33,290 bases of DNA. Origin: Bacteroidota bacterium (GTDB taxonomy: Bacteria > Bacteroidota > Bacteroidia > Chitinophagales > Chitinophagaceae). The notes beneath the pieces were generated by a model. It was not told the origin of the DNA. It saw only the letters and a program-made list of their open reading frames with translations, and searched no databases. Of the stretch, positions 23,996-25,731 are shown one piece after another. The translations under genes were made by a program, and so were the position numbers. The stretch lies in NCBI GenBank assembly GCA_016868455.1, contig VGGV01000022.1:1-33290 (forward strand). Direction: 5' to 3'. Within the stretch, counting starts at the first letter, position 1, and each line of letters opens with the position of its first letter.

Positions 23996-24000
23996 CCCTG

Positions 24001-24082
24001 TGCCCGGAACTGGATTCGAACCAGCACACCTCGCGGCGCCGCCACCTGAAGACGGTGCGTCTACCAATTTCGCCATCCGGGC
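24001..24082 (-). tRNA. tRNA-Leu (anticodon CAG)
   Basis: This is an 82-nt type II tRNA. Acceptor GCCCGGA pairs with TCCGGGC, stem CCGTC/GGCGG closes loop TTCAGGT (anticodon CAG), the variable arm is long and GC-rich (GCGCCGCGAGGTGT region), and the T-arm is CTGGTTCGAATCCAG. The discriminator is A at 24001. Confidence 0.94.
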
Positions 24083-24126: not shown

Positions 24127-24175
24127 GTGCGTCCACCATCCTTATAGCTATCGGGATCGCCATCCGGGCAATTAT
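24127..24175 (-). pseudogene. tRNA-Leu 5' fragment with a palindrome in its D-arm
   Basis: Reading the minus strand from 24175, ATAATT plus GCCCGGATGGCGA (24169-24157) is identical to the flank and nucleotides 1-13 of the real tRNA-Leu. TCCCGATAGCTATAAGGA (24156-24139) follows, then TGGTGGACGCAC (24138-24127), which is one base different from TGGTAGACGCAC of the real gene. The palindrome replaces D-arm bases 14-16. Similarity ends after GACGCAC. The copy starts 87 nt before the intact tRNA on the same strand. Confidence 0.8.
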
Positions 24176-24205
24176 AATAAGAACTTTTTGCCGGTGTAAC
24201 TGCTG

Positions 24206-24235
24206 TCCCAAAAGCTACCGGAATCGCAATCGGAC
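24206..24235 (-). pseudogene. Older, degenerate copy of the same tRNA-Leu 5'/palindrome unit
   Basis: The minus strand reads GTCCGATTGCGA (24235-24224) then TTCCGGTAGCTTTTGGGA (24223-24206). Aligned with the unit at 24127-24175, about 23 of 31 positions match with a single gap, and the junction falls at the same tRNA position. It lies 66 nt further upstream. Confidence 0.45.
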
Positions 24236-24244
24236 CTGGGAGTG

Positions 24245-24252
24245 CAAATATA
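24245..24252 (-). promoter_or_regulatory. -7 box upstream of the tRNA-Leu cluster
   Basis: The minus strand reads TATATTTGC, an exact TAnnTTTG match. A TTTG lies only 12 nt upstream. No better box is seen between the decayed copies and tRNA-Leu, so a transcript from here would carry both decayed 5' copies in its leader. Confidence 0.45.
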
Positions 24253-24398
24253 GGCGACTCCCGACAAACAGGAAAATAAGTGAAAACACATAGCATTCGG
24301 CATATTGCAGCGTATAACTGCAAAGACCCGTAACATTACTCACAGCCGTGGGGAAAAATGTCTCGTCCTGAAAAAAGTTGACTACAAAGTCAACAAAA

Positions 24399-24791
24399 AT
24401 GGAACAACTACGGATTAGATTAAAAACGGGTCCCCCTACACCACATTACAGTGAAGCTTTTAAAAAGAAAATAGTCCGGGAATTTGAGCAAGGCCTGCTG
24501 AACAAGGATCAACTACAGCGTAAATATGGATTAGGTGGTAAGAGCACCGTATTAGAATGGTGCCGCAAGTACGGTAAGTTTGCTTATCATTCACCTTCAA
24601 CAACCGGCAGACCCATGAAAGATCCCCAAAAGCAGCGTATCAAGGAACTGGAAAAAAAGCTAAAGGCAGCAGAGCTTAAGCTTAAAGTTTACGACAAGCT
24701 TATCGAGATACCCAACCGGGAACTGGACACTGACATTATAAAAAAAATAGAGGCCAGGTTGTCCGAGAGTTGGCGACAAAAAAAGAAGTGA
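24399..24791 (+). CDS. IS3-family transposase OrfA (helix-turn-helix)
   Basis: The product has 130 aa from ATG 24399; the open frame back to TTG 24378 is inside the terminal repeat region. YSEAFKKKIVREFEQGLLNK, DQLQRKYGLGGKSTVLEWCR is the helix-turn-helix DNA-binding segment that recognises the IS ends. A leucine-zipper-like helix follows (QRIKELEKKLKAAELKLKVY). The reading frame ends at TGA 24789-24791, 22 nt into orfB. The A_AAA_AAG heptamer just before the stop allows -1 frameshifting to make the OrfAB transposase. Confidence 0.88.
   Translation: MEQLRIRLKTGPPTPHYSEAFKKKIVREFEQGLLNKDQLQRKYGLGGKSTVLEWCRKYGKFAYHSPSTTGRPMKDPQKQRIKELEKKLKAAELKLKVYDKLIEIPNRELDTDIIKKIEARLSESWRQKKK
24779..24785 (+). 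promoter_or_regulatory. Programmed -1 frameshift heptamer A_AAA_AAG
   Basis: Within a run of seven A then G, in the orfA frame (CAA AAA AAG AAG TGA), the heptamer A_AAA_AAG sits three codons before the orfA stop. A -1 slip enters the orfB frame. This is the standard IS3-family arrangement. Confidence 0.8.
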
Positions 24792-25634
24792 GCATTACAT
24801 CTGTAAGCCGTCAGCTTGGCTATAGTAAACAAGCTTACTATAAATCAAAAACTAACCAACAAAAGAAAACCTGCTATCATACAATGGCAAAACAAAAAGT
24901 ATTGGCTGTGAGAAAACAACTGCCCCGCCTGGGTACAAGAAAACTCTATCATCTGCTTGCAGAAGATTTTTAAAAAGGACATCTAGCTGTAGGCCGGGAT
25001 AAATTATTTTCCATTCTGCGGGAAGAACAATTATTGATAGTAAAAAAGAAGCGGTTTACAAAAACAACCGATTCAAGACATGGGATGCACAAGTATCCTA
25101 ACCGGATAAAAGGATGGCTACCTGCAAACCCTGAGCAAATATGGGTAGCTGATATTACCTGGCTAAATATAAAAAAAGACTACGGCTACCTTCATTTGAT
25201 TACGGATGCGTACTCAAAGAAAATAATGGGCTATGAAGTAAGTGATAACCTGGCTGCAAGCAGCACAATTAAAGCGCTGGGGATGGCCTTAAGGAACAGA
25301 AAATATACAACCCCATTAATCCATCACTCCGACAGAGGTTTGCAGTATTGCAGTGCAGGATATACAAAACTGCTTACCGATAACAAAATAGCTATTAGCA
25401 TGACACCAGATGGTAGTCCTTATGATAATGCCATAGCCGAAAGGGTAAATGGTATTTTAAAAGATGAATTTGGGCTTGACGATACATTTGAAAATATGGA
25501 GCAGGCAAGGCGTGAAACGAAACAATCAATTGACTTATATAACAAGTTAAGACCGCATTTAAGCAATAATATGCTGACACCTGATGAAATGCACAAACAA
25601 AATAAACTGAAGCCAAGGGCCTGGCACAAAAAAA

Positions 25635-25668
25635 CCACAAGAACTTTGGAGGGTTCTTGTGGTTTTTT
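25635..25668 (+). terminator. Terminator inside the 3' end of orfB
   Basis: CCACAAGAAC, an 8-nt loop and GTTCTTGTGG form a perfect 10-bp stem, followed by TTTTTT (25663-25668) and preceded by seven A, so it may act in both directions. It lies 22 nt before the orfB stop codon. Confidence 0.75.
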
Positions 25669-25731
25669 ACCTTCGCTTCCACATTCCTAAACCAGTCAAC
25701 CTTTTTTAGGATTATTCATATTAAAAACCAT

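Follow-up and report, generated by a model that had tools for sequence, protein, structure and literature searches.

The window analysed here is a stretch of 33,290 nucleotides (contig VGGV01000022.1) from a Bacteroidota genome of the family Chitinophagaceae. ARAGORN finds four tRNA genes in it. The intact tRNA-Leu(CAG) gene lies on the minus strand at positions 24000–24082 (ARAGORN; RF00005, 49.4 bits) and is preceded on the same strand by two short modules. The order along this strand is a TATATTTG box (24252–24245), module 1 (24236–24206), the sequence AGTTCTTA (24185–24178), the hexanucleotide ATAATT joined to module 2 (24175–24127), a spacer, a second ATAATT and the intact tRNA-Leu(CAG). 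The TATATTTG box, which the initial annotation had placed at 24245, is present and is taken here to be a -7-like promoter box, while AGTTCTTA is presumably the boxA-like motif of tRNA leaders. Module 2 (24169–24127) is a clear copy composed of tRNA-Leu nucleotides 1–13 (24169–24157), the palindrome TCCCGATAGCTATAAGGA at the position of the D-loop (24156–24139) and the D-arm sequence TGGTGGACGCAC (24138–24127). Its 18-nt palindrome has two mismatches to the form common in the genome. The ATAATT at 24175–24170 duplicates the one that precedes the intact gene (24088–24083) and, together with the tRNA-Leu start, forms a perfect direct repeat of 19 nt spaced by 87 nt. The alignment score between tRNA-Leu and module 2 was reached by none of 2000 shuffles, upholding the earlier claim of a tRNA-Leu 5' copy that is interrupted by a palindrome upstream of the real gene. 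The third copy described at the same time exists as the decayed module 1 and resembles module 2 (0/2000 shuffles as good), but its direct likeness to tRNA-Leu is absent (905/2000). The two modules pair with each other in the minimum-energy fold, which was computed without a control. Note that plus-strand ORFs 24378–24791 and 25034–25690, just upstream of the tRNA-Leu promoter (noted region 24378–25690), look like an IS3-type transposase pair, as far as we can judge.

A second locus of this kind is found on the plus strand, where a 5' module (1109–1180) precedes the intact tRNA-Val(GAC) (1241–1316, ARAGORN). Its layout is like that of the tRNA-Leu module, but it carries two palindromes (1122–1139 and 1148–1164). 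The local score of tRNA-Val(GAC) against the module was reached by a single one of 2000 shuffles, in agreement with the parallel drawn in the initial annotation. The sequence TCCCGATA occurs seven times in the window (shuffled mean 0.66). The palindrome is found 55 times in the whole genome at up to two mismatches, with no occurrence of the reversed control. Some palindromes are seemingly located inside protein-coding sequence, as judged by eye (L035, L036 and L039, around position 1501) among the 15 loci at which dispersed copies were inspected.

The genome (2.64 Mb in 64 contigs, 36 tRNA matches) carries 5' copies, defined as the first 12 nt of the tRNA with at most two mismatches and no more than 350 nt upstream, at eight of its 36 tRNAs: Gly, Val(GAC), Ala, Arg, Cys, Leu(TAG), Leu(GAG) and Leu(CAG). 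A palindrome was found automatically at seven of these eight. Mismatched pairs of tRNA and upstream region, some of whose hits are due to related tRNAs, yielded 39 copies in 1151, of which 20 with a palindrome (binomial 2e-5). The pattern is therefore not a coincidence of two loci, as would have been suspected had it been confined to them; it recurs at other tRNAs of this genome and in other genera. tRNA-Trp, at three mismatches, may constitute a ninth case. The palindromes differ in kind, TCCCG..CGGGA being present at several tRNAs and TCCGCCGGTTGGCGGA at Gly and Cys. The tRNA-Leu(GAG) gene has the module type of the window with a perfect palindrome and a copy that extends through the anticodon arm. 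The motif AGTTCTT, which we also regard as boxA-like, lies upstream of several other tRNAs, e.g., at L023, L024, L026 and L027, with or without a tRNA copy. Several assembly contigs (C21, C5, C11, C12, C22) stop at or near tRNA genes, possibly because repeats of modules or duplicate tRNAs disrupt assembly there. At L015, a short tandem repeat with CCCGTTGCGAAGCGGG-type hairpins is found at a contig end upstream of tRNA-Pro.

The tRNA-Ala locus of this genome holds an additional component. One contig breaks off just beyond the tRNA, in the first part of an ORF, and a second contig starts with the same tRNA-Ala end and holds two identical ORFs of 83 codons. Behind each of them lies a 3' portion of tRNA-Ala in which TCCCGCAGGAGTGCGGGA takes the place of the anticodon arm, and the stop codon of the ORF is the TAG of the D-arm. 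The ORF codes for a GIY-YIG domain protein. The genome has five matches to PF01541, two of which adjoin a tRNA copy; for the other three, the closest tRNA match on the same contig is 3.9 kb or more away. Among the tRNAs of this genome, only tRNA-Ala has a nuclease gene beside it, the other seven of the eight modules standing alone, and no 3' copy was seen at these seven solo 5' modules. The window has no GIY-YIG nuclease gene and its contig no PF01541 match.

Fuller versions of these loci are present in relatives. A sequence pattern for 5' tRNA copies that carry a palindrome in the D-loop has matches in 6 of 147 genomes, the reversed control giving none, and the 83-residue protein has matches in 78 of 144 genomes of the family. 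The protein search, drawn from 30 search loci and 80 further stretches, provided 109 loci for examination, with the lowest-ranked matches left out; a nuclease ORF is found in 106 and at least 250 nt on both sides in 91, the remaining 15 of the 106 being set aside. Nuclease matches shorter than 50 model positions were discarded in the locus counts (55 in another step), as were tRNAs labelled Stop or ??? by ARAGORN and, in the strict count, those whose anticodon-arm stem measured at least 7. In the strict count, an intact tRNA on the same strand lies within 150 nt of the nuclease gene at 69 of the 91 loci, upstream of the gene in 57 and downstream in 12, and comprises 19 tRNA and anticodon classes; no intact tRNA is found within this distance at the other 22. 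A 3' half-copy of the same tRNA (its last 28 nt, at most six mismatches) directly follows the gene in 39 of the 57 loci, as compared to 17 of 2844 for tRNAs of other kinds. It is preceded by a palindrome, which typically replaces the anticodon arm, in 35 of the 39. A looser count, in which some tRNA calls are modules, gives a tRNA at 74 of 91 loci and a 3' copy at 41 of 60 (null 11/3190) with a palindrome in 37 of the 41; all 74 tRNAs are on the strand of the gene although both strands were allowed. Copies of the 5' end within 400 nt upstream of the tRNA are found at 35 of 72 loci.

The anatomy of these loci is well supported. The fuller order is promoter, one or more 5' half-tRNAs, intact tRNA, GIY-YIG gene and 3' half-tRNA. 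A second form has the gene upstream of the intact tRNA (L154, L158, L174, L056). The sequences establish that the half-copies are paired with their own tRNA and that a palindrome stands for an arm: it replaces the D-loop or the anticodon arm or, as in tRNA-Met and tRNA-Asp modules, the stretch directly following the anticodon, and the sequence toward the respective tRNA end is kept. Across 47 distinct 5' modules, identity with the tRNA drops from 0.83 at nucleotide 27 to 0.34 at nucleotide 28; in this profile, which leaves out L079 and tRNAs longer than 78 nt, the high identity of nucleotides 1–20 of 5' modules and of the last 30 nt of 3' modules is a consequence of how the modules were found. 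Palindrome families follow the kind of tRNA, e.g., TCCGCC..GGCGGA at tRNA-Met. Tandem arrays are likewise established, with a copy number that varies between loci and reaches seven at L068; the totals of 99 and 114 modules are inflated by one array, L079, with several tRNAs. In L077 and L079, tRNA-Lys modules are near-complete and are called by ARAGORN as tRNAs with altered or stop anticodons. A tandem array with five nuclease matches at a spacing of 315 bp lies at G431:C1:2945597-2947084. At the tRNA-Leu(GAG) locus L152, a 5' module GGCGA-TCCCGATAGCTATCGGGA-TGGT is accompanied by the intact tRNA, the nuclease gene and a 3' copy whose palindromes are different ones. Because this locus has the module type of the window together with nuclease and 3' copy, the copies in the window are read as solo 5' modules. 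The initial annotation had all copies upstream of the intact tRNA, which is correct within the window, whereas relatives also carry the complementary 3' half-copies downstream.

The protein associated with the modules scores 58.8, 54 and 36 bits against PF01541 (cut-off 22.6) for three nucleases, to none of which NCBIfam assigns a name. Residues Y4, Y15, G17, R25, H29 and E61 are invariant in 16 aligned nucleases and presumably are the GIY-YIG catalytic set (Y, Y-x-G, R, H, E). The nearest solved relatives by sequence are the UPF0213 proteins 1zg2 (E 1e-13) and 1ywl (3.9e-12), which consist of a single GIY-YIG domain, and the structure-specific nuclease SLX1 (1.6e-7). The nuclease phylogeny tracks tRNA identity. 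Distribution of the 13 label groups, one of them ‘none’, over a tree built from 76 columns of 109 nucleases, in which many forks are unresolved, takes 40 changes, compared to 79.6 on average in shuffles, none of 200 being as low; the labels are from ARAGORN, with a few misread modules, and are also clustered by near-copies and shared descent. The nuclease of this genome, which is unlabelled because its contig has no whole tRNA, is placed in the Ala clade, in keeping with its locus.

Matches to the nuclease profile are found in 251 of 395 sampled genomes of the phylum, a figure that does not imply linkage to a tRNA in all of them. Scanning of named genomes with a tRNA-Val-type query identified 55 loci, of which 47 in the strict count have a nuclease ORF of useful length and 37 also flanks. 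An intact tRNA is within 150 nt in 29 of the 37, upstream of the gene in 26, and a 3' copy is found in 20 of these 26 (null 6/210). Named hosts of such loci include Algoriphagus sp. A40, Cognataquiflexum rubidum, Aquiflexum gelatinilyticum, Flaviaesturariibacter flavus and Xanthomarina sp. F1114. One contig with the label Chloroflexi (L264, 1730–2115) features tRNA-Ile nucleotides 1–28 with CCCCGACATGTCGGGG at the anticodon arm, the gene and an intact tRNA-Ile with encoded CCA; the label is uncertain because the contig belongs to a metagenome bin. Among 39 congeners, the palindrome (at most one mismatch) is present in 12 of the 22 with a nuclease match and in none of the 17 without (Fisher 1.7e-4), an association that is suggestive only because most of the 17 have small genomes. 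The queries tried for carriage by phages or plasmids gave no match.

In genus g14, genome G013 has a promoter and tRNA-Ala with neither module nor nuclease. G112 carries a 5' module whose start GGGGAATTA resembles that of G013, then six more modules, an intact tRNA starting with GGGGGATTA, the gene and the 3' copy. The sequence downstream of the G112 element matches the opposite side of the tRNA in G013. Since the flanks lie on opposite sides of the tRNA, the pair represents a rearranged locus rather than a clean empty site. The pair G146 and G066 gave no clean empty site either, G146 holding a similar stretch of tRNA and nuclease elsewhere. In the congener G257, where 30 of 32 tRNA loci were read, tRNA-Val(GAC) is directly behind its promoter with no 5' copy, yet a 5' copy of tRNA-Leu(TAA) lies 70 nt in front of that gene, and matches at one to two mismatches are found further off for another four tRNAs.

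Taken together, these data make it somewhat probable that the solo 5' modules seen in the window belong to a family of chromosomal, tRNA-associated GIY-YIG elements of the homing type, whose tRNA halves would serve as recombination arms and which would bring a replacement tRNA. DNA cutting, recombination through the tRNA halves and replacement of the native tRNA are inferred. The nuclease would make a DNA break whose ends are tRNA halves; such ends could recombine with tRNA sequence and the element would therefore enter a tRNA gene together with an intact tRNA of its own. Recurrent breaks in situ would multiply the modules into tandem arrays. Two versions of the cutting step can be conceived. 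The nuclease may cut unoccupied tRNA genes, the palindrome representing the destroyed site. This version is opposed by L235, where the anticodon arm of tRNA-Val(TAC) beside the nuclease is the same as in the present genome, which has no Val-type nuclease (one case compared); as the tRNA beside the nuclease is not recoded, a tRNA gene as target would leave open how the element avoids cutting itself. Alternatively, the palindrome itself may be the cut site, with the tRNA halves guiding recombination, which would fit the likeness of palindromes among tRNAs and their dispersal. The window lacks a nuclease gene, so that its modules would be either relics or the work of a nuclease that acts from another locus. 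The agreement between nuclease and tRNA could also come from long-term inheritance of the nuclease with the tRNA, which counts against this reading.

An unlikely alternative is that the system operates on RNA, the GIY-YIG protein being an anticodon nuclease that cuts tRNA and the half-tRNAs with altered arms being resistant RNA decoys or regulators. The correspondence between nuclease clades and tRNA kinds is compatible with such a role, as are the altered anticodon arm of many loci and the modules that are near-full tRNAs called as tRNA by ARAGORN or Rfam. Many modules nevertheless keep only one half, 5' or 3', which cannot form a cloverleaf alone, and the gene ends within the tRNA copy and occurs in tandem arrays. 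It is similarly improbable that the loci reflect ordinary decay, in which tandem tRNA duplicates became pseudogenes and received an unrelated repetitive palindrome next to a bystander nuclease gene. The 55 dispersed palindromes of the genome, some in apparent protein genes, would agree with this reading, but the recurrence of the same palindrome position across tRNAs and genera, the flanking of one gene by both half-copies and palindrome families that follow tRNA kind are not accounted for. Still less probable is a function of the half-tRNAs as retained 5' leader structures that control expression or processing of the tRNA. The position of the modules between the -7-like box and the tRNA and the pairing of the window’s two modules speak for it, while their restriction to eight of 36 tRNAs, their variable copy number, their absence at tRNA-Val(GAC) of the congener and the 3' half-copies beyond the gene, which a leader leaves unexplained, speak against it. 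Chance is ruled out by the shuffles and the mismatched-pair nulls, the third copy being supported via the second one only.

The interpretation given in the initial annotation is partly supported by these results. Of the three options offered there, the one closest to the homing-type element favoured here is the tRNA-derived repeat by which the tRNA is regenerated. A mobile palindrome targeting the D-arm captures part of the picture, but the D-arm is rejected as a general target because in many modules it is the anticodon arm, or the sequence behind the anticodon, that is replaced, and the related loci add a GIY-YIG gene.

REP sequences and Rickettsia palindromic elements are short dispersed palindromes. 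The palindrome described here is like them short, present in many copies and found in some apparent genes, but it differs in replacing an arm of a tRNA copy and in accompanying a GIY-YIG gene. Mobile group I introns in tRNA genes insert around the anticodon, sometimes together with a homing endonuclease. In contrast, the tRNA of the present elements is whole and uninterrupted, and the 28 Rfam matches in 20 loci are all to tRNA, so a group I intron is rejected. Such introns are the subject of PMC3984707. The nearest system in behaviour is SegB, a free-standing GIY-YIG homing endonuclease of T-even phages whose gene adjoins tRNA genes and which is reportedly implicated in breaks within tRNA-containing sequence, tRNA and nuclease sequence being tandemly amplified by recombination (PMC13096335). 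Both systems share a GIY-YIG gene beside tRNA genes and tandem amplification, and linkage of the nuclease gene to its presumed target locus is found here at 69 of the 91 loci. SegB is phage-borne whereas the present elements are chromosomal, the proteins of the latter have little beyond the catalytic domain, and the passages on SegB in PMC13096335 mention neither half-tRNA palindrome modules nor a replacement tRNA. The element is not filed as a SegB member, cutting and homing being predicted from sequence comparison. Searches of open-access papers listed no account of half-tRNA modules with GIY-YIG genes.

A broader proposal, put forward tentatively and with less confidence than the assignment of the window, is that these loci define a new class of minimal mobile element. 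Its nuclease of ~85 residues would home into tRNA genes, with the two tRNA halves as portable homology arms that allow entry into unrelated genomes. It would bring a replacement copy of the essential tRNA, and would cut, or be licensed, at the palindrome that replaces an arm. Each lineage would largely be dedicated to one tRNA, and the family may exceed the Bacteroidota. If homing into tRNA genes is correct, essential tRNA genes would be invaded and replaced from outside in many bacteria. This would have consequences for our view of tRNA evolution, of the way in which an element may insert harmlessly into an essential gene, and of the role of the palindromes dispersed in these genomes.
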